From Buttiauxella agrestis (GTDB lineage: Bacteria; Pseudomonadota; Gammaproteobacteria; Enterobacterales; Enterobacteriaceae): a stretch of DNA of 64,000 nt. The notes beneath the pieces were generated by a model, which made no database searches, was not told the DNA's origin, and was given only the letters and a program-made list of their open reading frames with translations. The stretch is taken from positions 4,428,763 to 4,492,762 of the forward strand of contig NZ_UIGI01000001.1 in NCBI RefSeq assembly GCF_900446255.1. The letters run 5' to 3'. The first letter of the stretch is position 1; each line of letters begins with the position of its first letter. Below, piece after piece: positions 40,187-52,440 of the stretch. A program made the position numbers and the translations under genes.

Positions 40187-41281
40187 GTGGACATTAATCA
40201 CAGCACGGGCGAAAGCGTCATTACCAGCACCAAAGGCTATATGTGGTTTTTGTCTTTGAATATTATCTTCTGCGCCTGGTTATTATTACGTGGCACGCAC
40301 CGGAGCGACGTTGAAGACCTGCCGCTGATGCTGCAAATACTGTGCGGATGCATCATTACCCTTTCATTAATCAATCTGCTGATTACGGTAAAATTAAAGA
40401 AGAACATTAACGACGGTTTCTACCACAAACTGCTGCCCTTCGTGGTGCTGGCATTTGGGCTATTGTGGTCAGTGTTATTTTTGAACTTCACGCTTTATTA
40501 TCAAAACCCCCTCATCACGCTGATGTTGACTGTCACGGTATTATTACCGGCGACCATTACCTTCTACATTTCAGGGCGTTTACTGCTGATATTCTCCGCG
40601 CCACTGGTTATCTGCTTGCTGTATGTCGAATTCTTTTTACAGGATAAATTCAGCGTCGCGCAGGTTGTCGGGGCCGTGATCATGCTGATGGTGATTTATT
40701 CTGCCCGCTACATTTTGCTCGAGTGGTACCAGCGCGTTCAGCGCAGCGAATACGAGAAAAATATTCTGATTAAGAAGCTGGTGCAGCAGGCGCATTACGA
40801 TGCGTTGACCGGATTGTTTAACCGACTCAGCATGACGAGTTTCTTTGAAGAGTGTGTCAGCGCGCTTGCTGGCAACAAAAAGAAGCTGTTCATGATTGTG
40901 ATGGATATCGATTTCTTCAAACAATACAACGATATGTATGGTCACGTTGCCGGAGACAAGTGCCTGATTAAAGTCTCACAATGCATTGAAAAATCTTTGC
41001 GTAAAGACAGCGACAGCGCGTTTCGATTTGGCGGTGAGGAGTTCGTGGTGCTGACCGTCTGCGATGACATCTCGCAGGTAAAAGCCATCAGCCACCGGAT
41101 TCAGCAAAATATTGCCCATGCGCATATTCCCCACAAAGGCTCGCGTATCTCCTCGGTGCTCACCATCAGCCAGGGCATAGCACAATGGCAAGAAGGAATG
41201 ACGCTCGAAGCACTGGTTGAAAAGGCCGATCAGCAGCTTTATAAAGCCAAGGAACAAGGTAGAAATCGGGTAAATTACTAA
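40187..41281 (+). CDS. Membrane-bound diguanylate cyclase (GGDEF)
   Basis: 364 aa with a GTG start after AAGGAGCGGGAT. Five or six TM helices (about 20-195) form the sensor part and a GGDEF domain fills about 205-364. The active-site motif is GGEEF at 282-286, which is catalytically competent in the family. DALTGLFNRLSM and MDIDFFKQYNDMYGH are canonical. The inhibitory I-site position carries KDSD in place of RxxD, so product feedback may be weak. It stands alone between the two envelope operons. Confidence 0.9.
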   Translation: MDINHSTGESVITSTKGYMWFLSLNIIFCAWLLLRGTHRSDVEDLPLMLQILCGCIITLSLINLLITVKLKKNINDGFYHKLLPFVVLAFGLLWSVLFLNFTLYYQNPLITLMLTVTVLLPATITFYISGRLLLIFSAPLVICLLYVEFFLQDKFSVAQVVGAVIMLMVIYSARYILLEWYQRVQRSEYEKNILIKKLVQQAHYDALTGLFNRLSMTSFFEECVSALAGNKKKLFMIVMDIDFFKQYNDMYGHVAGDKCLIKVSQCIEKSLRKDSDSAFRFGGEEFVVLTVCDDISQVKAISHRIQQNIAHAHIPHKGSRISSVLTISQGIAQWQEGMTLEALVEKADQQLYKAKEQGRNRVNY

Positions 41282-41667
41282 AATATTTAATTAAGATAAT
41301 TTAAATAATTCCAGAATGTAATTACATTTATATTTGCTCTCCCCATCCCCTTTCACCAATAAAATAGCCGGGCAAAACAATTATTTTGCTCGGTTATTCC
41401 TGTCTATTATCTTGTACTCGCGCCAGATTTTGATTCTTTCCGTTTATTTTTAAATGAGTTACTTAAAATCCTCTTTAGTGAAAATGTTACTGTATATGCC
41501 GCTATTTCTTTTTATTCAAAGAGTTATATAACAACCCGCTATTTATACACTCAAGAACAATCTCATCTCATTTATTTAGCTAATTTTCATGAGAATTCAA
41601 AACGTAATAGCAAATTTCAGGTCTTTACTATACTCACTGAGTCCCTTAAATGAACGGAGTCCCAAAG
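41282..41667. promoter_or_regulatory. AT-rich intergenic region: cyclase terminator and sulfatase-operon promoter region
   Basis: The hairpin AATAGCCGGGCAAAA/TTTTGCTCGGTTATT (41363-41398, 15-bp stem with two G-U pairs) probably ends the cyclase transcript. The remaining 270 bp is very AT-rich and must hold the promoter of the nine-gene operon, but I see no convincing known operator. The sulfatase SD is GGAG at 41653-41656 region, before the ATG at 41668. Confidence 0.55.
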
Positions 41668-43257
41668 ATGCTTAACAACGTCCCTTTCAAAAGGACAATG
41701 ATAGCCAGCATGCTGACATTAATGTCTGGCGCCGTGTCCGCTGTTCATGCCGCTCCTGCAACAGCCTCGCCCGAAAATGCACCGAAACAAGACGCCTCAA
41801 AACCTAACATCGTCGTTATTTTCGGTGATGATATTGGTTACTGGAACCTCAGTACCTATAACCAGGGAATGATGGGTTACAAAACGCCGAACATTGACAG
41901 CATCGCCAGTGAAGGCGCGAAGTTCACATCCTATTACGCTGAACAAAGCTCGACCGCAGGGCGTTCTTCGTTCATTACCGGGCAAATGCCATTCCGTACC
42001 GGGATGAGTAAAGTGGGGATGCCTGGTGCTCCGCAAGGCCTGCAAAAAGAAGACCCAACCATCGCCAACATCCTCAAACAGTTGGGTTACGCGACCGGGC
42101 AGTTTGGTAAAAACCACCTCGGCGACCGCGACGAATTCCTGCCAACCGCGCACGGTTTCGATGAATTCCTCGGCAACCTGTACCACCTGAATGCCGAAGA
42201 AGAACCTGAAAACCCGGATTACCCGAAAGATCCTGAATTCCGTAAACAATTTGGCCCACGCGGCGTGATTAAGAGCACCGCCGACGGCAAAATTGAAGAT
42301 ACCGGCCCACTGACCATTAAACGTATGGGTACGGTTGACGAAGAAACCCTCGCCGCCAACAACGACTTCATGGAACGACAGACCAAAGCCGGGAAGCCAT
42401 TCTTTACCTGGTTTAACACCACGCGTATGCACAACAAAACTCACCTCAAAGATGCCAGCAAAGGCGTGACGGGGCTTGGGGATTATGCAGACGGCATGGT
42501 TGAGCACGACAAAATGGTCGGCGAGGTGCTGCAAAAGATTAAAGACCTCGGTATTGAAGACAACACCATCGTTCTTTACACCACCGATAACGGCCCGATG
42601 ACAGCAACCTGGCCTGATGCGGGTATCACTCCATTCCGCGGTGAGAAAAACACCGGCTGGGAAGGCGGTTTCCGCGTACCAGCGATGATCAAATGGCCGG
42701 GCCATATCAAACCGGGCACGCTGATTAACGACATCTTCGGCAGTAATGACTGGTTCCCTACTCTGGTTGCCGCCGCAGGTATTCCGGATATCAAAGAGCA
42801 GTTGCTGAAGGGCTACAAAACCCCGTCCATCACCTACAAAGTGCATCTTGACGGTTACAACCAGCTCGATTTCATCCAGGGCAAAGGTGAAGACCCGCGT
42901 AAAGAGTTCTTCTACTGGAGCGATGACGGCGACCTGCTGGCGATGCGTTACGGTCGCTGGAAAGCGCACTTCATGATCCAGGAACACACCGGCCTTGATC
43001 TGTGGCGTTATCCGTTCACCAAACTGCGTGCACCGATGATCTTCGACCTGGAAGTGGATCCGCTGGAGAAAGGTTCCGACGGTATGGGTTACCAGAGCTG
43101 GTTCTACGACCGTCTGTTCCTGATGGGCGGCGCGCAGAAATACGTTCAAGAAATGCTGGCAACCTTCAAAGAGTTCCCGCCACGTCAGAAACCAGGTTCA
43201 TTCACGGTTTCCGATGCAGCAGCAATGATCGAACAAGGCTCCAATATCAATAAATAA
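41668..43257 (+). CDS. Serine-type periplasmic sulfatase
   Basis: 529 aa. Starting at the ATG preceded by GGAG gives a clean signal peptide ending near VHAA; another ATG six codons upstream has no SD. Type I sulfatase features: metal-binding FGDDIGY (Asp54, Asp55), the maturation motif Ser95-Thr-Ala-Gly-Arg99 in which Ser becomes formylglycine, GKNHLGD and TTDNGP. A Ser-type motif needs an anaerobic maturase, and one is encoded directly downstream. Close to the arylsulfatase group; the natural sulfate ester is unknown. Confidence 0.9.
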   Translation: MLNNVPFKRTMIASMLTLMSGAVSAVHAAPATASPENAPKQDASKPNIVVIFGDDIGYWNLSTYNQGMMGYKTPNIDSIASEGAKFTSYYAEQSSTAGRSSFITGQMPFRTGMSKVGMPGAPQGLQKEDPTIANILKQLGYATGQFGKNHLGDRDEFLPTAHGFDEFLGNLYHLNAEEEPENPDYPKDPEFRKQFGPRGVIKSTADGKIEDTGPLTIKRMGTVDEETLAANNDFMERQTKAGKPFFTWFNTTRMHNKTHLKDASKGVTGLGDYADGMVEHDKMVGEVLQKIKDLGIEDNTIVLYTTDNGPMTATWPDAGITPFRGEKNTGWEGGFRVPAMIKWPGHIKPGTLINDIFGSNDWFPTLVAAAGIPDIKEQLLKGYKTPSITYKVHLDGYNQLDFIQGKGEDPRKEFFYWSDDGDLLAMRYGRWKAHFMIQEHTGLDLWRYPFTKLRAPMIFDLEVDPLEKGSDGMGYQSWFYDRLFLMGGAQKYVQEMLATFKEFPPRQKPGSFTVSDAAAMIEQGSNINK

Positions 43258-43316
43258 TGACCTGTAACCGGGTGGGCAACCACCCGGTTAATTCGTCGTG
43301 CTCTCAGGGGTTCGCT

Positions 43317-44612
43317 ATGAAGTACAGCACAACATTGCCGGTTAAAGCATTACCGTCAGCAGAGAAATATGATGGCAAAGGCCCTGAATACAAGCGCCGT
43401 TTTCACGTTATGGCGAAGCCTACCGGCTCCACCTGTAATCTCGATTGCACCTACTGTTTTTACCTGAGTAAAGAAGATCTGCTGCATCAAGACCGCCACA
43501 CCGGCATGAGCGACGAAGTGCTGGAAAACTTCATTCGTCAGTACATCGACGGGCAAGATGGCGAGCAAGTGGTTTTCTCCTGGCAAGGTGGCGAACCCAC
43601 ATTGATGGGGCTGGAGTTTTTCGAAAAAGTCGTCAAATTCCAGAAACAGTACCAAAAGCCCGGCCAGCGCATCGAAAACGACTTACAAACCAATGGCGTG
43701 CTGATTAACGACAAATGGGCTGAATTCCTCAAAGAACACCGTTTTCTGGTTGGCTTGTCGATTGACGGCCCACGAGAATTACACGACCGCTACCGCGTCA
43801 CGCGCAGCGGCAAACCGACTTTCGACTTAGTGATGAAAGGCGTCGAAGCGCTCAAAAAATACAAAGTCCCTTTCAACGCGCTCGTCACCGTCAACCGCAC
43901 CAACGCTCGATTCCCGCTGGAAGTTTACCGTTTCGTCACCAAAGAACTGGGCGCGACCTACGTGCAATTTAACCCGTGCGTAGAAGCGGTTGATTTCAAA
44001 GTCACCGCCCCGCAATTCTGGCGCGATGAAACCATCCCCATTACCGGAACGCGCCGCGCAAAACCGGGCGACCTGGACTCCATCGTCACCGACTGGTCAG
44101 TGGATCCTGATGACTGGGGCACCTTCCTGAAAACGGTGTTTGAAGAGTGGGTGAATAACGATTTAGGCCGCGTGCAAGTTAACCTGTTTGAAACCGCCGT
44201 CGCCCAAACCATGGGTATGCCCGCGCAAATTTGTACCGCCTCCGAGTTTTGCGGCAAAGGTCTGGCCATCGAAAAAAATGGCGATATCTATTCCTGCGAC
44301 CACTACGTTTACCCCGAATATCAGATTGGCAATATCGAAGACACCAAACTCGCGCACCTGGCATTTTCCGAACGCCAGAAAGCCTTTGGCATGGGGAAAA
44401 AAGACACGCTGCCGGAATACTGTAAACAGTGCCCGTATCTGAAATTATGCTGGGGCGAATGCCCGAAAAACCGCCTTGTCCGCACGCCAGACGGCGAGCA
44501 AGGCCTTAATTATCTTTGCCCAGGCATCAAAGCTTTCTTCAATTACGCCGAGCCGATTCTTGTCGGACTCGCCACGCTTTTGAAACGTGACTTTGCAGGA
44601 TTGCGCAAATGA
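43317..44612 (+). CDS. Anaerobic sulfatase-maturating enzyme (radical SAM, SPASM)
   Basis: 431 aa, starting at MKYSTTLPVK after AGGGG. It oxidises the sulfatase active-site Ser (or Cys) to C-alpha-formylglycine. The radical SAM cluster is CNLDCTYC (CxxxCxxC); FSWQGGEPTLMGLEFF and QTNGVLIND are typical. The SPASM part provides two auxiliary clusters: CTASEFCGKGLAIEKNGDIYSCD and YCKQCPYLKLCWGECPKNR, then YLCPG. The gene overlaps the next by 4 nt. Functional partner of the sulfatase upstream; resembles Klebsiella AtsB and AslB. Confidence 0.92.
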   Translation: MKYSTTLPVKALPSAEKYDGKGPEYKRRFHVMAKPTGSTCNLDCTYCFYLSKEDLLHQDRHTGMSDEVLENFIRQYIDGQDGEQVVFSWQGGEPTLMGLEFFEKVVKFQKQYQKPGQRIENDLQTNGVLINDKWAEFLKEHRFLVGLSIDGPRELHDRYRVTRSGKPTFDLVMKGVEALKKYKVPFNALVTVNRTNARFPLEVYRFVTKELGATYVQFNPCVEAVDFKVTAPQFWRDETIPITGTRRAKPGDLDSIVTDWSVDPDDWGTFLKTVFEEWVNNDLGRVQVNLFETAVAQTMGMPAQICTASEFCGKGLAIEKNGDIYSCDHYVYPEYQIGNIEDTKLAHLAFSERQKAFGMGKKDTLPEYCKQCPYLKLCWGECPKNRLVRTPDGEQGLNYLCPGIKAFFNYAEPILVGLATLLKRDFAGLRK

Positions 44613-45607
44613 CAAACAGAGAGAAACTGCTCGAACTTGAGCAGCGTATGAATCAACAGGTTTTGGGTCAGGAATCGCTGGTACGCATGTTAATTGTCGC
44701 GCTGCTTTGCGACGGACACGTACTGCTCGAAGGCTTGCCGGGTCTGGCAAAAACCCGTGCGGTGCGTGAACTCGCCCGCCATGTGGAAGGTGAATTCCGC
44801 CGCATACAGTTCACGCCAGATCTTCTGCCGTCAGACATTACCGGCAGCGAGATTTACCAGCAAAATGCCACGCGTGAAGAAGACCAGTTCCGTTTCCGCC
44901 CAGGCCCGGTGTTCGGCAATATTATTCTTGCCGATGAGATAAACCGCGCCTCGGCACGTGTGCAATCGGCATTGCTCGAAGCCATGGAAGAACGCCACGT
45001 CACGGTGGCCGGGAAAACCTGGCCGCTACCGGGCATTTTCATGGTGCTGGCGACGCAAAACCCGGTGGATCAAGAAGGCACCTGGCCGTTGCCCGAAGCG
45101 CAGCTTGACCGCTTTTTGATGAAAGTTCTGGTGGATTATCCGTCCAAAGAAAACGAGCAAAAAGTGATGCAACTGGTGCGTTCGGAGCAGCAGCAAAAAT
45201 ATCTGGCAAGCGGCGATGGACAAACGGAAAAACCGGCTGAAACGCTGATGTTATCGCAGCAAGATATTGCCACCTGCTGGCAGGAAATCTCGGCGGTTTA
45301 CGTCGCGCCAACTATTGAAAACTACATCGTCAATCTGGTGGATATGACCCGCCATCCGCAGGGTATCAGCGACACGCTCGCCAGTTACATCACGTTTGGC
45401 GTCAGCCCGCGCGGCACCTTAGCACTCGATCGTTGTGGCCGCGCACTGGCCTGGCTCGAAGGCCGCGACGCGGTATTGCCAGAAGATATCAAGCTCGTCG
45501 CCCCGGCAGTGTTACGCCATCGCCTGATGCTCAGTTACCAGGCCAACGCCGATAATACCTCTCCGGACGACGTAATCCGGATGTTGCTCGACGCAGTGGT
45601 GGCGTAA
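44609..45607 (+). CDS. MoxR-family AAA+ ATPase
   Basis: 332 aa. Walker A is GLPGLAKT (about 40-47), Walker B IILADEINRA, and LATQNPVDQEGTWPLPEAQLDRF is the MoxR signature with the sensor region. MoxR proteins are cytoplasmic chaperone-like ATPases that work with VWA proteins on maturation or metal loading of enzymes. All the usual partners follow without gaps. One-base overlap with the DUF58 gene (TAATG). Confidence 0.92.
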   Translation: MTNREKLLELEQRMNQQVLGQESLVRMLIVALLCDGHVLLEGLPGLAKTRAVRELARHVEGEFRRIQFTPDLLPSDITGSEIYQQNATREEDQFRFRPGPVFGNIILADEINRASARVQSALLEAMEERHVTVAGKTWPLPGIFMVLATQNPVDQEGTWPLPEAQLDRFLMKVLVDYPSKENEQKVMQLVRSEQQQKYLASGDGQTEKPAETLMLSQQDIATCWQEISAVYVAPTIENYIVNLVDMTRHPQGISDTLASYITFGVSPRGTLALDRCGRALAWLEGRDAVLPEDIKLVAPAVLRHRLMLSYQANADNTSPDDVIRMLLDAVVA

Positions 45608-46512
45608 TGAATAGCGCGTTACAGGTGGATCGCCAAACCCTGATGGCGCTGGCAGGCGAAGCACGTTTGCTGTCGAACCCGCCTGGGCAGATCCCACCGG
45701 GAGCGCTGGCGGGTGAGCGTGTTTCACGCCAGCAGGGGCGCGGGCTTAATTTTGATAGTCTCCGTCGCTACCAACCAGGTGATGACGTGCGGTTGATCGA
45801 CTGGCAAGCCACCGCCCGCCTGCGATCGCCGTGGATCCGCATGTATAACGAAGAGCGCGAGCGCCCGGTGTTCTTGATCGTCGATCAGCGGCTGGATATG
45901 TTTTTTGCCACCCGCGGGCAAACCAAATCTGTCGCAGCCGCCAAAATTGCGGGCCTGCTCGCATGGCGAAGCTGGCACGATGGCGACCGCATCGGCAGCG
46001 CGGTGTTCAGCGATGCAAATTACAGCCTGCAAAAATGCCGCGCCCCACGCACCAATCTGCCCGCAGTGCTCGATGACCTGCTGCAATACAACCAACAATT
46101 ACCCGAACGCTACCCTGATGAAACACCCGCAACCGTGACGCTCGGCAGCGTGCTGCAACACGCCATGCATCTGATCCCCGCCGGTTCCTGGGTGGCCGTC
46201 ATCAGTGATTTCCACGATCTCGATGCGTCCGGTGAAGCCTTGCTGGCTGCCCTGCGGCGGCGCTGCGAGATTAGCGCATTTGTCACGCTCGACAACCTGC
46301 ATCTCACCCTCCCGACGCAAGGAAACCTGGCCGCCAGCTATCAGGGTCATGAAGCCGCGTTTTCGCTTTCGCCACGGCTAAAAGATGAGATTCAACAGAG
46401 CGTGACTGCGCGGCTTTCCGGCCTGCAAAACCGACTGACACGGCTTGGCGTCCGCGTGAATCAGATAGTCGTCACAGACGATCTTCTCAAGCAGCTACAA
46501 AAGGGAGTCTGA
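45607..46512 (+). CDS. DUF58 domain protein
   Basis: 301 aa, cytoplasmic, with no TM segment predicted by eye. The DUF58 signature is LRRYQPGDDVRLIDWQATAR (about 55-75) followed by ERPVFLIVDQRLDMFF, which occupies the place of a VWA MIDAS but reads DQRLD rather than DxSxS. DUF58 proteins are obligate neighbours of MoxR ATPases. The stop abuts the ATG of the next gene. Confidence 0.9.
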   Translation: MNSALQVDRQTLMALAGEARLLSNPPGQIPPGALAGERVSRQQGRGLNFDSLRRYQPGDDVRLIDWQATARLRSPWIRMYNEERERPVFLIVDQRLDMFFATRGQTKSVAAAKIAGLLAWRSWHDGDRIGSAVFSDANYSLQKCRAPRTNLPAVLDDLLQYNQQLPERYPDETPATVTLGSVLQHAMHLIPAGSWVAVISDFHDLDASGEALLAALRRRCEISAFVTLDNLHLTLPTQGNLAASYQGHEAAFSLSPRLKDEIQQSVTARLSGLQNRLTRLGVRVNQIVVTDDLLKQLQKGV

Positions 46513-46953
46513 ATGCTCGAGAAAGGATTTAGCGTGCCGGAGCTGTTAAACCCGGCGCTTCCACGAAGTATCTCCTGGTTTCCCTTGCCGCCCGGCTGGT
46601 TTGTGCTCGGCGGCGTGTTACTTATCGCGCTGATTATCTTCGGGTTATTCCACCTGGCGAGATGGCGGCGCAACGTGTGGCGTCGTGAAGCGCTGGCGGC
46701 ATTGCAGCAGCCGCACAGCGCCGATAGCTGGCTGGAACTGATAAAACGCATTCTGCTGATGCACCAGCCGCGCAGCCAAATTAGCCACACGCTTTCGCCA
46801 GAACAACTCTTGCAGCATGTTGAAATCGACGCCGATTTGCGCCAGCAATTGAGCGCCAAATATTGCCAGCCGGATAACCAGCTCGAGGCGAATCAAAACG
46901 CACGTCTGCAAACACAACTGAAACACTGGCTGGAGAAACTGCCTTATGTCTGA
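46513..46953 (+). CDS. DUF4381 domain membrane protein
   Basis: 146 aa with one TM helix (about 28-52, FPLPPGWFVLGGVLLIALIIFG) and a cytoplasmic tail rich in Q and R. The WFPLPPGW segment before the helix is characteristic of DUF4381, always found in MoxR-VWA operons. Role unknown, probably a scaffold. Overlaps the following VWA gene by 8 nt. Confidence 0.85.
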   Translation: MLEKGFSVPELLNPALPRSISWFPLPPGWFVLGGVLLIALIIFGLFHLARWRRNVWRREALAALQQPHSADSWLELIKRILLMHQPRSQISHTLSPEQLLQHVEIDADLRQQLSAKYCQPDNQLEANQNARLQTQLKHWLEKLPYV

Positions 46954-47923
46954 GTTTCTGAGCCGCCTCGATTTCGCCTGGCCGTGGGCGTGGTTACTGA
47001 TTTTCCTGCCGCTGCTTGGTCGCTATTTTTTACCGCAGGATCGCGAAGTGAAAGAACATGTTCGCGTACCGTTCTTGCCGGAATTAATTGATGAGCTGAA
47101 ACTCAACAGCCAGCCGGTGCGCACCAGCAAACTCTCAAGCCTGATTTTTTGGCTGACGTGGATTCTGCTGGTTGCCGCCCTCTCGCGCCCGGAATACCTG
47201 ACTCCGCCGCAGCATATTCAAAAACCGATGCGCGATGTGGTGCTGATTCTGGATGTCTCCGGTTCGATGGGCAAAAACGACGTTCAGGGTGGGATCACGC
47301 GCTTACAGGCCGTTCAGGAATCGGTGCGAAAATTCGTGGCGGCGCGTAAAACCGACCGCATCGGGCTGGTGATTTTTGCCAGCCAGGCGTGGCCATTCGC
47401 CCCGGTTAGCGAAGACAAACAGGCGCTGCAAACGCGCATTAACCAACTCGCGCCCGGCATGATTGGTCAACAAACCGCGATTGGCGACGCGCTGGGAATC
47501 GGTGTGAAACTGCTCGATACCACCGCTAACAAAGACGCCAGCAAACTGGCGATTTTACTCACCGACGGCAACGACACCGCATCGCAATTAGCGCCACCGC
47601 TCGCCGCACAACTGGCGGCAACGCATCACGTTCAGGTACATACCATCGCCTTTGGCGATCTGAACAGCACTGGCGATGACAAAGTAGATTTGCCGCTGAT
47701 GCAGGATATCGCGCGCATTACCGGCGGAAAATCCTGGACTGCCGCCGGTTCCGGTGCGGCTCTCGACAGCGTATGGCAGGAAATCGACGCCATCACCCCC
47801 GTGCAGGTGAAATCCATCGGCTGGTCGTGGCACATCCCGCTGTTCCAGTGGCCGCTGCTACTGGCGCTGGCTTTGCTGATTTTGCTCGCGGTCACGCGAT
47901 TCGTGCGGGAGAAAACAGCATGA
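46946..47923 (+). CDS. VWA-domain membrane protein (BatA-like)
   Basis: 325 aa. N-terminal TM helix pair (about 10-30 and 65-85), a periplasmic or cytoplasmic VWA domain (about 90-290) and a C-terminal TM helix (about 298-318). The metal-ion-dependent adhesion site is complete: DVSGSMGKND (DxSxS), with the conserved Thr in GQQTAIGDALGIG and Asp in LLTDGND. This is the Aerotolerance BatA topology. Overlaps the next gene by 4 nt. Confidence 0.9.
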   Translation: MSEFLSRLDFAWPWAWLLIFLPLLGRYFLPQDREVKEHVRVPFLPELIDELKLNSQPVRTSKLSSLIFWLTWILLVAALSRPEYLTPPQHIQKPMRDVVLILDVSGSMGKNDVQGGITRLQAVQESVRKFVAARKTDRIGLVIFASQAWPFAPVSEDKQALQTRINQLAPGMIGQQTAIGDALGIGVKLLDTTANKDASKLAILLTDGNDTASQLAPPLAAQLAATHHVQVHTIAFGDLNSTGDDKVDLPLMQDIARITGGKSWTAAGSGAALDSVWQEIDAITPVQVKSIGWSWHIPLFQWPLLLALALLILLAVTRFVREKTA

Positions 47924-49443
47924 GTGACTTCCATTTTGTTTACCCATGGCGGCTGCTCGGTCTGCTGATTTGCGCGCTGCTGTGGTTTGTTGCCAGCAGC
48001 CAACGTAGCGCCTGGCACCAGATTATGGATAAGCCGTTTGCCAAAGCGCTGATTATTGGGCGACAAAAACGCCTGACCCAGATTTTACCGTGGTTGTGCG
48101 CACTCGGTGTCATCGCTCTGGCAGGCCCGACCTGGCAGCGTGAACTCCCGGCCGCACTGACGCAGCAAAGCAACATGATGGTGGTGTTACAGCAAGATCC
48201 GGCGATGTACGCGCAGGATTTAGCTCCGAGCCGCCACCAGCGTATGCAGAGCAAAATCATGGACCTGATGAACCGTTCAACAGGCACGCATTTCGGCCTG
48301 GTGGTTTACAACGCTCATGCATATCTGACCACACCACTCACTTCCGACCCGACGTTTTACGCGCTGTTCTTGCATGCCCAAAGCCCAAATTTATTGCCAG
48401 AAGGTGAAGGCTCGGGGCTAAAACAGGCTATCGCCCTGGCGATGAAAAACATGCCAGAAACGCCGAATATGCCGCGCAATATTTTACTGATTGCCGACAC
48501 CGTTTCGGCGCAAGACGCAACGTGGCTTGCCCAACAAAAAGCGCCCATTCAAATCTGGGTTCCGGGGACCGCACGCGGGGGTGAATTACCCGAAAGCTAC
48601 GCCCAGCGTGGGATTGATACGCGTCTGAACGTCGAACGCTTTAGCCAAATTCGCGATGGCGGCATTCCGGTCACGCTCGTCACCAGCGACGACAGCGATT
48701 TATCGGTACTCGCCAGCCACATCCAACAATCGGTGAGCGCGCAAAATAACGCTCGCGGCGATTTGCACTGGAAAAACAGCGGCTATCTGCTGGTGATCCC
48801 AATGCTTTTGCTACTGCTTCTCGGGCGGCGACAGCTGATTTGCTGGCTGATTGTGCTGGTGCCGCTGCTGTATCTGCCCCAAAGCCAGGCCGCATGGCAG
48901 GATGCGTGGATTAGCCCGGATATGCAGGGGCAACTCGCCTTCAATAAAGGCGAATATAAAAAAGCCGCAGAGCGTTTTCAGGACCCGCTGTGGCAAGGCA
49001 TCGCCTACTACCGCGCCGAAGATTTTGTCGCGGCCACCTCCGCATTTCGCCAGGCACCGCAAACCGCTGAATCGCTATTATGGACGGGCAACAGCTACGC
49101 CCAGCAAAAGCAGTGGCAGCAGGCCATTAACAGCTATGACCGCGCCTTAAGCCTGCGCCCGGACTGGAAAACGGCGCAACAAAACCGCGCTGCCATCGCC
49201 AAAATCATTATGGAATTGCGCCAGAAAGAACGCGATCGCCAGGCGGCTCAGGGCAAAGAACAGGACTATAAACCGGACGAAATTAAACACGATTTAAGGA
49301 AAGATCAGGGCGTCAATCAGAAGGATATCCAACCCGTTGCCAGCAGCAGCCCGCAGGTCAATCAGTGGTTTGAAAACCTGGAGGTTTCCCCTTCCGGCCT
49401 GCTGGAAAATCTCTACCGCGCCAACACGGAGGAGGCTCCATGA
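47920..49443 (+). CDS. VWA-like plus TPR membrane protein (BatB-BatC fusion)
   Basis: 507 aa. Two N-terminal TM helices, a VWA-like domain (about 85-285), two TM helices (about 290-330) and a C-terminal TPR region (about 340-440: LAFNKGEYKKAAERF, YYRAEDFVAATSAFRQ, YAQQKQWQQAINSYDRALSLRPD) followed by a charged tail. The place of the MIDAS reads VVLQQDPAMY instead of DxSxS, so metal binding is probably lost. It starts at MSDFHFVYPW, the ATG inside the end of the previous gene. Confidence 0.88.
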   Translation: MSDFHFVYPWRLLGLLICALLWFVASSQRSAWHQIMDKPFAKALIIGRQKRLTQILPWLCALGVIALAGPTWQRELPAALTQQSNMMVVLQQDPAMYAQDLAPSRHQRMQSKIMDLMNRSTGTHFGLVVYNAHAYLTTPLTSDPTFYALFLHAQSPNLLPEGEGSGLKQAIALAMKNMPETPNMPRNILLIADTVSAQDATWLAQQKAPIQIWVPGTARGGELPESYAQRGIDTRLNVERFSQIRDGGIPVTLVTSDDSDLSVLASHIQQSVSAQNNARGDLHWKNSGYLLVIPMLLLLLLGRRQLICWLIVLVPLLYLPQSQAAWQDAWISPDMQGQLAFNKGEYKKAAERFQDPLWQGIAYYRAEDFVAATSAFRQAPQTAESLLWTGNSYAQQKQWQQAINSYDRALSLRPDWKTAQQNRAAIAKIIMELRQKERDRQAAQGKEQDYKPDEIKHDLRKDQGVNQKDIQPVASSSPQVNQWFENLEVSPSGLLENLYRANTEEAP

Positions 49444-50456
49444 GAACCTTGCTGATGGTGCTTTTGCTGGCCGTTCTGCCAGCCCGAGCGGCGATGGACA
49501 TTACGCGGGAGCTTGAAGCGCCAGAGCATGTCGCGCCCGGTCAGCCCGTGCGGGTGGCTATCACCTTCTGGACGGATAGCTGGTTTAATCCGCCGCCGCA
49601 ATGGCCTGATTTTAAAATTGAGAACGGCTCGTTACTCACCACGCCGCTGCCAAACCAACTGCTGAGTCGCCAGAAAAATGGTATTAGCTGGAGCGGCGTG
49701 CGCCTTGAACGACAAATCACCGCGTGGGATCAGGGCGTGCTGCTGATGCCTGCGGTGGAAATCACCCTCACTTCACCCAACCAACCGCCCGTCACGGTGC
49801 AATTACCCGAGCTGAAAAAAGAGGTGGTCTGGCCGAAAGGTGTGGAGCAGCCGGATCGCTTCCTGCCCGCCAGCAACTTAACGCTCACCCAGAAAATCAC
49901 CCAGTATCACGCAAGCAAAGACGACAAACTCCACGCTGGTGACGTGATCGAGCGCACCGTCACGGTTAAGGCCAACGGGATTGTTGCCACACAAATCCCG
50001 CAATTGCTGTACGCCATTCCTGGCACCGAAACCCAGCGCCTGACGCCCGTGAACACCATGCTGAAAACGGGACGGGGTGAAATCGAAGGCGCACAGCGTG
50101 AAGAAACCCTGCGTTATTTACCTTCACAAGCGGGCGCCATCACCATTCCGCCGCTGAAATTACGCTGGTGGGACACGGCAAATCAGCAATGGCAAGTGGC
50201 GCAATTACCCGGCTCCACCCTGCAAGTTGCCGAAGCGCGCGCCGCAGGAAGTGAATCGGCACTGCGCGGCGCCACCGATGATGGAAAATGGCGCATCGCG
50301 ACGATGATCATCACCGTCGTACTAATGGCGCTGCTTCTCTGGTTTACGCGCCGCCCGCTGCGGCGCAGTTTGAGGTATCTGCACCGTGTCTGGCAGCGCT
50401 TCTGGAACCCTGTCCCATTGCCCAAACTAACTCCCACCAAAAGGGGTGAACGATGA
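49440..50456 (+). CDS. BatD-like exported membrane protein
   Basis: 338 aa. Signal peptide MRTLLMVLLLAVLPARA, a periplasmic beta-rich region with two similar halves (about 20-270; PGQPVRVAITFW and HAGDVIERTVTVKANGI are corresponding strands) and one C-terminal TM helix (about 283-303) followed by a basic cytoplasmic tail. This is the BatD architecture of MoxR/VWA systems. Overlaps neighbours by 4 nt on both sides. Confidence 0.82.
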   Translation: MRTLLMVLLLAVLPARAAMDITRELEAPEHVAPGQPVRVAITFWTDSWFNPPPQWPDFKIENGSLLTTPLPNQLLSRQKNGISWSGVRLERQITAWDQGVLLMPAVEITLTSPNQPPVTVQLPELKKEVVWPKGVEQPDRFLPASNLTLTQKITQYHASKDDKLHAGDVIERTVTVKANGIVATQIPQLLYAIPGTETQRLTPVNTMLKTGRGEIEGAQREETLRYLPSQAGAITIPPLKLRWWDTANQQWQVAQLPGSTLQVAEARAAGSESALRGATDDGKWRIATMIITVVLMALLLWFTRRPLRRSLRYLHRVWQRFWNPVPLPKLTPTKRGER

Positions 50457-51463
50457 AACATAAACTGTTACTCACAACGCTAATTCTGGGTGCAATGGGT
50501 GCGGCTCACGCCGCCGACCCGCTGTCTGCGTGGAAGGATACGGCGGCGAAACAATCCATTGAACAATGGGTGCAAAATGCGACCAATCAAGACCGCTCAA
50601 CCTATATTCCGCCCCAGAAGCGCTATGTGGTGTTTGATAACGACGGCACGTTGTGGCCCGAAGCACCGCTGACATTCCAGCTCCAGTTCGCTATTGATGA
50701 AGTAAAACGCCTCGCGCCAGAGCACCCGGAATGGAAAAACGATCCCATTGTGAGCGCGGTGCTGAATAACGATTTAAAAACCGTTGCTGCCGCGGGTGAA
50801 AAAGGGCTGATGCAGCTTTTAGAGCTGACGCACAGCAACATCACCACCGACGAATTCGACCAGCGCGTCGCCAATTGGGTCGGTAGCCACCGGGATAATC
50901 GCTTTGGCTGCCGGTACGATCAAATGGGCTACCAGCCGATGCGCCAGTTGCTCGATTACCTGCGTGAAAACGGCTTCAAAACGTGGATTGTGTCCGGCGG
51001 CGGCATTGATTTTATGCGCGTGATAGCGGAGAAAATGTACGGCATTCCACCCGAGCAGGTGATCGGCTCGTTCTCACTTAGCGAGTTTTCCCTGACCGAC
51101 AACGGCACGCAGTTGCGTAAAACCATGAAAGGCGCGTTTAACGACGATGCAACCGCCAAGCCCGTCGCGATCCATCTGTTTATGGGCCAGCGCCCGGTTG
51201 CGGCGTTTGGTAACAGCGACGGCGATTTAGCGATGATGCAGTACACCGCAGCCAACCCGGACTATAAAACCTTCGGTTTGCTGGTTCACCATACCGATGC
51301 CGAGCGTGAATATGCTTACGATAGCCATCCACCTGCCAGCGGTAAACTGGTCGAAGGACTAAGTATGGCGAAGGAAAAAGGCTGGACGGTGGTGGATATG
51401 AAGCAGGACTGGAGAACGGTGTTTGACCCGAAATCGTGTGTTCCGGAATCGCCAAAACAGTAA
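50453..51463 (+). CDS. Exported HAD-superfamily phosphatase
   Basis: 336 aa with a Sec signal peptide (MKHKLLLTTLILGAMGAAHA). HAD motif I is VVFDNDGTLWPEAP (Asp-x-Asp), motif II the Ser in WIVSGGGIDF, motif III the Lys in KPVAIH and motif IV GNSDGDLAMMQY. It belongs to the phosphoserine phosphatase-like HAD group, which is rarely periplasmic. It is the last gene of the sulfatase/MoxR operon. The 3' 148 bp are overlapped on the opposite strand by the extended AtaT frame. Confidence 0.85.
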   Translation: MKHKLLLTTLILGAMGAAHAADPLSAWKDTAAKQSIEQWVQNATNQDRSTYIPPQKRYVVFDNDGTLWPEAPLTFQLQFAIDEVKRLAPEHPEWKNDPIVSAVLNNDLKTVAAAGEKGLMQLLELTHSNITTDEFDQRVANWVGSHRDNRFGCRYDQMGYQPMRQLLDYLRENGFKTWIVSGGGIDFMRVIAEKMYGIPPEQVIGSFSLSEFSLTDNGTQLRKTMKGAFNDDATAKPVAIHLFMGQRPVAAFGNSDGDLAMMQYTAANPDYKTFGLLVHHTDAEREYAYDSHPPASGKLVEGLSMAKEKGWTVVDMKQDWRTVFDPKSCVPESPKQ

Positions 51464-52035
51464 AATAAGGGGTGGATAAGCGTGAGCGCCATCCACCTTA
51501 AAATGAAGTGTTGTTGTTCTGCAAACAGCTGTTCGATGGACTTAGTGGGGTAGAACAGTGAGTTCGCATTGTCGCCGACCAATGCAGTAAAGCCGAGTTT
51601 GAGATAGAACTGCATCGCCCCCGCATTGACGGCATCCACAAACATTCCATGAATCCCCACCGCCTGCGATGCAAGCCAGGTGATTTTCATCGCGTGCGCG
51701 ACAAGCGTTGTACCCCACTCTTGCCCATGAAGGTCTTTATGAACCGCCAGACGCCCTAAAGTGACGCTGGGAACATTGGCATAAGGGACTTTCCGCTTCT
51801 GCGTATTCGACGGAAGTGTCGCCTTTTCAAAGCAGCTGCCCGACAACGTATAGTAGCCTAACACTTTCGATTTCTGCTCTTTAGCAACAAGCAAATAGCC
51901 GCGTAAGATCCGGCCACTATGCTGACGTGCAAGATGATCGGTTAGAAAAGTATTCAACGGTTCTTCACCGCAGTCGAAACCTGAAAAATCGTATTCTGCA
52001 TCCTGCGAAAAAATCTCAATCATCAGGTCAGCCAC
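51316..52035 (-). CDS. ataT: AtaT-like GNAT toxin with REP-derived C-terminal extension
   Basis: 239 aa from a GTG start 3 nt after the antitoxin stop. Residues 1-174 match AtaT, the E. coli toxin that acetylates the amino group on initiator tRNA: FDCGEEPLNTFL, VLGYYTLSGSCFE, VPSVTLGRLAV and catalytic Tyr144 in FYLKLGF. AtaT normally ends about residue 175. Here the stop is missing and the frame runs through a palindrome (RWMALTLIHPLFY) into the complement of the HAD gene. The acetyl-CoA loop reads HGQEWG instead of QGQGWG. Possibly weakened or inactive. Confidence 0.75.
   Translation of the reverse strand: MADLMIEIFSQDAEYDFSGFDCGEEPLNTFLTDHLARQHSGRILRGYLLVAKEQKSKVLGYYTLSGSCFEKATLPSNTQKRKVPYANVPSVTLGRLAVHKDLHGQEWGTTLVAHAMKITWLASQAVGIHGMFVDAVNAGAMQFYLKLGFTALVGDNANSLFYPTKSIEQLFAEQQHFILRWMALTLIHPLFYCFGDSGTHDFGSNTVLQSCFISTTVQPFSFAILSPSTSLPLAGGWLS
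51466..51500. repeat. REP-like palindrome at the HAD/ataT junction
   Basis: TAAGGGGTGGATAAGCGTGA followed by GCGCCATCCACCTTA forms a GGTGGAT/ATCCACC hairpin of the same family as 58738-58766. It starts immediately after the HAD stop and marks the point where AtaT homology ends. Confidence 0.75.
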
Positions 52036-52038
52036 GCG

Positions 52039-52308
52039 TTACTCCATATTTTGTAAGCGTTTAGCGGCACTTTTAAGCCTGGCGTTCGGTGCGGGCGGAT
52101 TGCTGAGAGCCTCCATCACCAAATCCCACGATTCTTCATTCAGAACCAGGCGACGATGTTGCTCAATGACTTGCGCGGCACGTTCAGAAGCGCTGGCTAC
52201 CATAAACTGAGTGATAGTCTGGTTGGACATTGCCGCAGCTTCTTCGATTAAGCGCTTGTCGTCGTCAGTTAATCTGAGATCGATGCGCTGTTTTTTTAAT
52301 GCTGGCAT
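52039..52308 (-). CDS. ataR: AtaR-like DUF1778 antitoxin
   Basis: 89-aa ribbon-helix-helix antitoxin that neutralises the GNAT toxin and represses the operon. The ATG giving MPALKKQRIDLRLTDDDKRL has GGAG 8 nt upstream and matches the AtaR N-terminus; upstream starts are not conserved. RHH region about 5-45; the toxin-binding tail includes LNEESWDLVMEALSNPPAPN, shared by the DUF1778 family. Confidence 0.88.
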   Translation of the reverse strand: MPALKKQRIDLRLTDDDKRLIEEAAAMSNQTITQFMVASASERAAQVIEQHRRLVLNEESWDLVMEALSNPPAPNARLKSAAKRLQNME

Positions 52309-52440
52309 AGTGCGCTCCATAACTGCTCGCGTTGTGCATCGGAAATTGTGTACGGTGTTTTTCCGTACGCAGACTATAGAGTGGAATGAATGAATTTTCA
52401 ACAAGTGATCCGGCGGGGAACCGTATCGGACAGAAACGAA

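Follow-up and report, generated by a model that had tools for sequence, protein, structure and literature searches.

A group of MoxR/Bat gene sets associated with a family of formylglycine sulfatases, and its operon in Buttiauxella agrestis

A nine-gene operon of Buttiauxella agrestis, at positions 41668-51463 of the 64,000-nucleotide stretch of contig NZ_UIGI01000001.1 that was analysed (hereafter the window), joins an exported sulfatase and its radical SAM maturase to a MoxR/Bat set, in which a MoxR ATPase is accompanied by DUF58, DUF4381, two VWA and BatD-like proteins (hereafter the machine). It was revealed that such MoxR/DUF58/DUF4381/VWA/VWA/BatD sets are linked to a sulfatase in Enterobacterales, Aeromonas, Vibrionaceae, Rhizobiales, Planctomycetes and Desulfobacterota. 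The initial annotation had tied the MoxR/Bat set to the sulfatase, and this tie recurs across phyla, carried by one group of Bat sets. A MoxR/VWA machine is of a known kind; its dedicated sulfatase partner is newly recognised. MoxR-like ATPases are very common, yet the clients of Bat sets are largely unknown, and a Bat group linked to an exported enzyme that is easily assayed by colour would make the client question directly testable. If the reading proposed below is true, formylglycine alone is not enough for some sulfatases, and this could be relevant to the difficulty of producing active bacterial sulfatases elsewhere.

All nine genes lie on the plus strand, and their families were assigned by Pfam and NCBIfam profiles:

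41668..43257, plus strand: exported Ser-type S1 sulfatase of 529 aa (PF00884, 168 bits)
43257..44612, plus strand: anSME, an anaerobic sulfatase-maturating radical SAM/SPASM enzyme (TIGR03942, 514 bits, cut-off 349)
44609..45607, plus strand: MoxR AAA+ ATPase (AAA_3, PF07726, 207 bits)
45607..46512, plus strand: DUF58 protein (PF01882)
46513..46953, plus strand: DUF4381 protein (PF14316), with one transmembrane helix at residues 30-48
46946..47923, plus strand: BatA-like VWA protein, VWA1 (PF00092, 72 bits)
47920..49443, plus strand: BatB/BatC-like VWA_2 and TPR protein, VWA2 (PF13519 and TPR)
49440..50456, plus strand: BatD-like protein (PF13584, 20.1 bits, below the 24.1 cut-off)
50453..51463, plus strand: exported HAD-IB phosphatase-like protein (PF12710), an optional member of the cluster

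The same genes had been placed here by the initial annotation, which counted an overlap or zero gap at seven of the eight junctions. The tight packing stood, and the count becomes eight of eight given the anSME start at 43257, the junctions being -1, -4, -1, 0, -8, -4, -4 and -4 nt in gene order. An upstream ATG at 41650 is an alternative start of the sulfatase, and 41668 is favoured because GGAG stands ahead of it.

Relatives of the sulfatase numbered 343 in named genomes, of which the best 80 loci were fetched (L001-L080). The nine genes were in order on one strand in 28 of the 32 loci with a sulfatase of more than 80% identity (L001-L031, L036). The exceptions were L006 and L008, without the downstream HAD gene, L016, where HAD was inverted beside a second anSME, and L024, which had sulfatase and anSME alone and whose genome also holds the full set L019. 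Since all the junctions overlap or abut and most of these close relatives keep the nine genes in order, the operon is confirmed as real. Eight of the nine proteins of L001 were 99% identical to those of the window (BatD, 96%), and the flanking DNA matched on both sides. Among 149 genomes of the family (148 genera), a close sulfatase (86-99% identity) was present in five, and the same five had an intact MoxR (74-99%), which in every case shared a contig with the sulfatase and lay about 1.4 kb from it. The other MoxR matches at 1e-20 numbered six, namely five ordinary ones (43-45%, L104-L108) and a broken one in genome G066. This last genome, of the same family, carries a decayed cluster (L103) with fragments of anSME, MoxR, VWA2 and BatD, in which HAD (81%) and a FadL-type gene persist and no sulfatase was found. 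The E. coli genomes searched gave no match, and a plasmid search returned eight records, six of them from Pantoea. An enteric-like operon was also found in L011, titled Chryseobacterium; it grouped with Enterobacteriaceae in the trees and is probably contamination or wrongly labelled.

The sulfatase begins with a Sec-like signal peptide, as judged by eye, and its formylglycine motif at residues 93-99 is QSSTAGR, of the Ser type. The stretches FGDD, GKNH, TDNG and EKNT align with arylsulfatase A and hold what we take to be the metal-binding and catalytic residues. With a Sulfatase domain, a [C/S]-x-[A/P]-x-R motif and these residues, the protein has the features of an S1 formylglycine sulfatase, and this activity is predicted for it. 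Three equivalogs were rejected for it by their NCBIfam cut-offs: choline sulfatase (73.5 bits against 433), PehA (30.7 against 900) and the PRK13759 arylsulfatase (83.6 against 481). The anSME has the CxxxCxxC motif of anaerobic sulfatase maturases, as CNLDCTYC, and MoxR has the Walker A (GLPGLAKT) and Walker B (ILADEINR) motifs of a MoxR AAA+ ATPase; the closest solved structures are 4k36 and 2r44, respectively. No transmembrane helix was found in DUF58, which bears a DQR signature typical of the sulfatase-linked sets. The metal-ion-dependent adhesion site (MIDAS) is intact in VWA1 (DVSGSM, 103) and lost in VWA2, where alignment with other sets places QQDPAM at residue 91 in place of the expected DxSxS. 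BatD has a signal peptide, a C-terminal transmembrane helix and a positively charged tail. Its AlphaFold2 model (predicted local distance difference test score 86) shows two immunoglobulin (Ig)-like beta-sandwiches and a C-terminal helix, and a fold search with it returned generic Ig-like matches only. Homologous genes at the same position in relatives back the BatD call. The order MoxR, DUF58, two VWA, TPR and BatD is that of a Bat-type operon, with BatD identified by position, homologues and model only. The HAD protein matches PDB 4ovy (E 1.5e-86) and contains the motifs FDNDGT and GNSDGD.

The link between machine and sulfatase was then followed outside the close relatives. MoxR was nearby in 13 of the 48 distant loci (L032-L080 minus L036), and in seven of them it was of the sulfatase-linked type (L033-L035, L039, L052, L073, L079). 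Planctomycete MoxRs of 37-38% identity beside a sulfatase (L061, L062, L065, L068, L080) were not counted as linked because the three included in the tree (L061, L065, L080) joined a different MoxR group. The whole genomes behind 19 loci were searched for MoxR, and in genomes without MoxR at the first sulfatase locus the best MoxR often lay beside another sulfatase of the same family. A sulfatase was found in six of the first ten stretches fetched from these genomes. They include Rhizobium L183, with the gene order MoxR-DUF58-DUF4381-VWA-VWA-BatD-FGE-sulfatase-HAD, where FGE is the formylglycine-generating enzyme, as well as planctomycete sets (L181, L182) and Vibrio sets (L184-L186); L180 reaches the sulfatase in L071, and L177-L179 had none. 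Another three (L187, L189, L205) were found among 20 further MoxR loci, a count that leaves out L196 and L197, whose matches were weak and partial (26-33%). Measured from gene mid-point to mid-point, 17 of the 65 MoxR loci in the 19 genomes lay within 10 kb of a sulfatase against 0.9 expected, although nine of the genomes had been picked for loci where the set was already known (only partly so for L071 and L024). The fairer figure comes from the ten genomes selected through a sulfatase locus that had no MoxR set, in which 9 of 48 MoxR loci, lying in six genomes, were within 10 kb against 0.76 expected (Poisson 1.2e-7, relatedness ignored). Gene order varied between the linked loci, with the sulfatase before, after or divergent from the machine genes.

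A prospective test was made with the DUF58 protein of L183 alone as query, in 101 genomes of the family of the Rhizobium locus and 118 of a planctomycete class; both samples were centred on genomes in which the set was already known, and the Fisher test ignored relatedness. At E <=1e-25, the DUF58 scores split into those of at least about 230 bits and those of at most 131 bits. Loci were fetched for each of the 22 new high scorers and for 18 of the 29 low scorers (3/3 rhizobial, 15/26 planctomycete). A member of the sulfatase family was in the stretch in 17 of the 22 high scorers and in none of the 18 low scorers (Fisher 3.3e-7). By sample, it accompanied nine of ten rhizobial high scorers (the tenth had HAD and FGE only) and eight of twelve planctomycete ones. 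For the four planctomycete sets without an adjoining sulfatase, eight neighbour proteins were scanned and none was a sulfatase, the other neighbours not being scanned. Since 15 of the 18 low scorers, all planctomycete, show no Bat set in the stretch, they serve as a control for the DUF58 score and not for Bat sets. Controls for Bat sets were provided by L112-L131, which are 20 MoxR loci from among those nearest to the window's MoxR, though not exactly the first 20, in a sample of 369 gammaproteobacterial genomes, and by L229-L231. A sulfatase was present in 0/20 and 0/3 of them, respectively; L112-L131 are mostly ordinary Bat sets, with MoxR alone in L114 and stretches of only about 5 kb for L119 and L127.

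In the same samples, every one of the 24 machine-bearing genomes, two seeds included, encoded the sulfatase family, against 69 of the 195 without the machine. The figures were 11/11 against 6/90 in the rhizobial sample and 13/13 against 63/105 in the planctomycete sample, with one seed in each; at most 12 candidates were scored per genome in the planctomycete sulfatase searches, so that absences there are soft. Dependence is thus one-way: the machine implies the sulfatase, and not the reverse.

The sets linked to a sulfatase form one group of Bat sets. In a joined tree of MoxR, DUF58, VWA1 and VWA2, one branch parted 24 linked from 22 other sets with a Shimodaira-Hasegawa-like approximate likelihood ratio (SH-aLRT) support of 100; here L177 and L179 were labelled linked by a cytochrome-TPR neighbour alone, and L180 by its contig continuing to the L071 sulfatase. 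In an enlarged tree, a single branch (SH-aLRT 99) again parted 35 linked from 24 other rows. The 35 include L211, L222, L226 and L227, which are high-scoring DUF58 sets without a sulfatase in the stretch, and a sulfatase lies in the locus for 29 of them if L180 is taken together with L071. Before each tree was built, near-duplicate rows and a number of long branches were removed; L186 is absent from the enlarged set. Single-gene trees required one change for MoxR (99), VWA1 (92) and VWA2 (96). In an earlier tree of MoxR only, the linked MoxRs formed one clade in 15% of bootstraps, which was not rejected (approximately unbiased test, p 0.377); the question of one group that this tree left open was settled with more rows and genes. 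The Bat-set trees are unrooted, so that the group is a lineage only if the root lies outside it, and either side may be the nested one. The DUF58 signature follows the same division: DQR was found in 21 of the 24 linked and none of the 22 other sets of the first tree (L186 has DQS), and in 33 of 35 against 0 of 24 in the enlarged one.

The initial annotation had viewed the operon as one unit of both maturation routes and a phosphatase. This view is not supported in that form, since the maturase is exchangeable and HAD is absent or relocated in five loci (L006, L008, L016, L024, L109). The local maturase is anSME in the enterics, L039 and some Vibrio (L184-L186, L189, L205) and FGE in the rhizobial linked loci L183, L207 and L212; none was detected in L073, L079 and the sulfatase-bearing planctomycete loci. 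Rhizobial Cys-type sulfatases with an adjoining FGE were also found in L045, L053, L057 and L064. In the first 80 loci, Ser-type sulfatases had anSME alongside and no anSME was found by a Cys-type sulfatase. This rule fails beyond them, because L184 and L205 combine a Cys-type sulfatase with a local anSME; the motif was not readable by script in seven linked loci (L182, L185, L186, L189, L207, L210, L212). The pairing of sulfatase and anSME itself occurs without MoxR in L024, L046-L050 and L101/L102. In the last two, which belong to the window's own family, anSME (72-74%) and HAD (71-79%) accompany another Ser-type sulfatase (35%, PSSTPGR), which indicates that the machine follows the sulfatase type and not the maturase or the phosphatase. 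Of the co-occurrence that had been put forward for checking, therefore, the part concerning the sulfatase-anSME pair gave way, since the pair separates from MoxR, whereas the machine was found without the sulfatase family in none of 24 genomes. Maturase, HAD and machine are separable modules round a sulfatase. As the maturase is swapped and HAD is optional, the recurrent partner of the machine is the sulfatase, and because the maturase varies (anSME, FGE or none detected) under a constant machine, the machine is not tied to formylglycine formation.

Where the machine would act can be suggested from the sequences. Export signals, judged by eye, are present in most of the linked sulfatases with readable starts and are mostly Sec-like. 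MoxR and DUF58 are predicted to be cytosolic, and the main (C-terminal) part of DUF4381 is probably cytosolic as well. Hydropathy and counts of Lys and Arg suggest that the VWA1 domain, VWA2-TPR and BatD are mainly periplasmic; the charge pattern points clearly to this for BatD and VWA2 but only weakly for VWA1, whose loop has 5 Lys/Arg against 6 Asp/Glu. The DxSxS of VWA1 is kept in all 46 rows of the joined tree. The VWA2 site is lost as QQDxxM in enteric and Aeromonas sets (DQRPAM in L109), is also lost in L180-L182, and is mostly kept in L183 and the Vibrio sets. In enteric and Aeromonas sets, therefore, only one VWA protein is expected to bind metal.

We hold with moderate confidence, taking the mechanism as a whole, that a dedicated MoxR/Bat machine acts on the sulfatase after export. 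The operon would produce an exported sulfatase together with an anSME that converts its active-site Ser to formylglycine in the cytosol. A MoxR hexamer and DUF58, both cytosolic, would be mounted on the part of DUF4381 that lies in the cytosol and would use ATP to drive a membrane assembly of VWA, VWA-TPR and BatD proteins, whose VWA, TPR and Ig-like domains would face the periplasm. After export of the sulfatase, this assembly would complete it, load it, most likely with its active-site Ca2+, or proofread it, and HAD would be an optional periplasmic phosphatase in the same ester-scavenging pathway. S1 sulfatases bind Ca2+ next to formylglycine. Together with the MoxR precedent of methanol dehydrogenase, this site makes activation after export, perhaps by Ca2+ loading, the simplest reading; the metal-loading step itself is drawn from that precedent. 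Direct observation covers the genes, the grouping of the Bat sets and the association of that group with the sulfatase family. A wider form of the proposal is tentative and, in our judgement, on the doubtful side: that a MoxR/Bat family spanning phyla is dedicated to one sulfatase family and carries out an unrecognised, ATP-driven last step of its periplasmic maturation, Ca2+ loading or proofreading, after formylglycine formation and regardless of anSME or FGE.

Several observations weigh against action of the machine on the sulfatase. Five of the 22 high-scoring DUF58 loci have no sulfatase in the stretch, and all five genomes have one elsewhere. The machine is absent from 6 of the 17 rhizobial and 63 of the 76 planctomycete genomes with the sulfatase. 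MoxR was nearby in none of 20 gammaproteobacterial sulfatase loci, eight of which are stretches of 3.4-11.4 kb bounded by contig ends, and no MoxR was found at 1e-30 in two Polynucleobacter metagenome-assembled genomes, of unstated completeness, with a Ser-type sulfatase, anSME and HAD. The tree of DUF58 alone requires two changes and gives no single split. Some rhizobial sulfatases have Tat-like signals (L183, flagged by script; L208 and L209, by eye), and since Tat-like export means that the sulfatase is already folded, a folding role looks disfavoured there. Finally, direct contact between machine and sulfatase, metal transfer and an altered activity are steps that we infer.

Another explanation is that machine and sulfatase are merely co-regulated in one pathway and that the client is a different envelope protein, such as a FadL-type channel, a multihaem cytochrome-TPR protein or HAD. 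In L008, L014, L019, L021-L024, L027, L029 and L031, the gene immediately upstream of the sulfatase encodes a FadL/TodX outer-membrane channel, which hints that a substrate or product is hydrophobic. In Vibrionaceae and Desulfoluna (L033-L035, L073, L079, L071, L177-L179), a recurrent neighbour of the MoxR set is a multihaem cytochrome c/TPR protein of about 770 aa, its gene often standing between that set and the sulfatase, and in L177-L179 this protein accompanies the machine with no sulfatase within 20 kb. These partners recur less widely than the sulfatase, however. When the neighbours in 50 loci were clustered, sulfatase was found in 42, HAD in 15 (at the threshold used), FadL in 9 and cytochrome-TPR proteins in clusters of 6 and 4, and we consider a client of this sort rather unlikely.

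It is also conceivable that a general Bat stress or envelope set was captured by a sulfatase operon, and that the association reflects nothing more than shared descent of one transferred block. The block is indeed passed on as a unit in the enterics, MoxR occurs in 272 of the 369 gammaproteobacterial genomes (1e-40) with no sulfatase required, and the test samples contain related genomes, which do not count as independent. The linked sulfatases, however, are scattered over several separate parts of the sulfatase tree, which together with the varied gene order indicates that in several phyla the link either arose anew or survived rearrangement; the low-scoring DUF58 loci, with no sulfatase in any of 18, also speak against a general set, and this explanation appears improbable. 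Service to the HAD phosphatase, or to both exported hydrolases as the initial annotation had allowed, is very unlikely: HAD closes the operon, overlapping the gene before it by 4 nt, and is also present in linked loci of rhizobia and in part of the planctomycete ones, but it shares a locus with a sulfatase without a MoxR set in 17 of the 48 distant loci, stands with another sulfatase and no MoxR in L101/L102, survives in L103 where the machine decayed, and was not found in many linked loci.

Neighbouring features in the window are the following:

40187-41281, plus strand: MASE5-GGDEF diguanylate cyclase gene, immediately upstream of the operon
41363..41398, plus strand: terminator-like hairpin with a 15-pair stem, between the GGDEF gene and the operon
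51316-52404, minus strand: GNAT acetyltransferase/TacA-type antitoxin pair, directly downstream of HAD

The hairpin would fit the operon being a separate transcription unit; it is weak evidence, since 18 terminator-like sites were counted in the region and 15.7 in shuffled sequence. The GNAT/TacA-type pair looks like an insertion, because the match to the flanks of L001, L004, L005 and L007 resumes only some 960-970 bases beyond the HAD gene; L002 has the pair.

Among known systems, MxaR/S/A/C/K/L form the MoxR accessory system of methanol dehydrogenase, an exported enzyme. In the available parts of the sources, a MoxR of the MRP subfamily is described as important for activation of this Ca2+ enzyme (PMC3893208), and MoxR-MoxC/L pairs are said to support its calcium insertion (PMC12657314). 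The operon resembles that system in joining a MoxR ATPase and VWA partners to an exported Ca2+ enzyme, and differs in that its putative client is a formylglycine sulfatase. When 200 genomes were searched with TIGR03075 and 20 wider dehydrogenase loci were fetched, tblastn with the window proteins as queries found no mxa-like set in them; L167 has an ordinary Bat set beside a pyrroloquinoline quinone dehydrogenase, and L157 a weak MoxR match (24%). RavA-ViaA, NorQ-NorD, CbbQ-CbbO and MSMEG_0748-0751 are likewise MoxR-type ATPases with VWA partners dedicated to one enzyme (PMC12657314, PMC3893208). The clients given for these pairs, in the parts of the two sources at hand, are nitric oxide reductase, fumarate reductase, complex I, Rubisco and CO dehydrogenase, with no sulfatase named. 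No sulfatase-MoxR/Bat system was found in the open-access literature, as judged by title and start of abstract, most subscription papers being outside this scope. PMC7159879 concerns an FGE-like effector domain, and the acesulfame sulfatase of PMC11500405 was set aside as a CxPxR type outside the family of the window sulfatase.

Known sulfatase maturation ends with formylglycine. The operon shares this route, with a Ser-type sulfatase beside a TIGR03942 anSME (in rhizobia, a Cys-type sulfatase stands beside FGE), and is unlike it in that an ATP-driven membrane machine is added. Among Bat proteins, the periplasmic placement suggested above for the VWA domains agrees with the topology of the BatA-like Borrelia BB0173, whose VWA domain faces the periplasm according to the portion of PMC5700661 available. 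In Leptospira biflexa, deletion of all bat genes left growth, morphology and oxidative-stress tolerance unchanged and altered only HtpG abundance, as far as the accessible part of PMC3557215 states. The operon has the same families in the same order as Bat (Bacteroides aerotolerance) sets of the form MoxR-DUF58-BatA-BatB/C-BatD, and its group is set apart from the others by one branch of an unrooted tree, by the DQR of DUF58 and by the sulfatase alongside.

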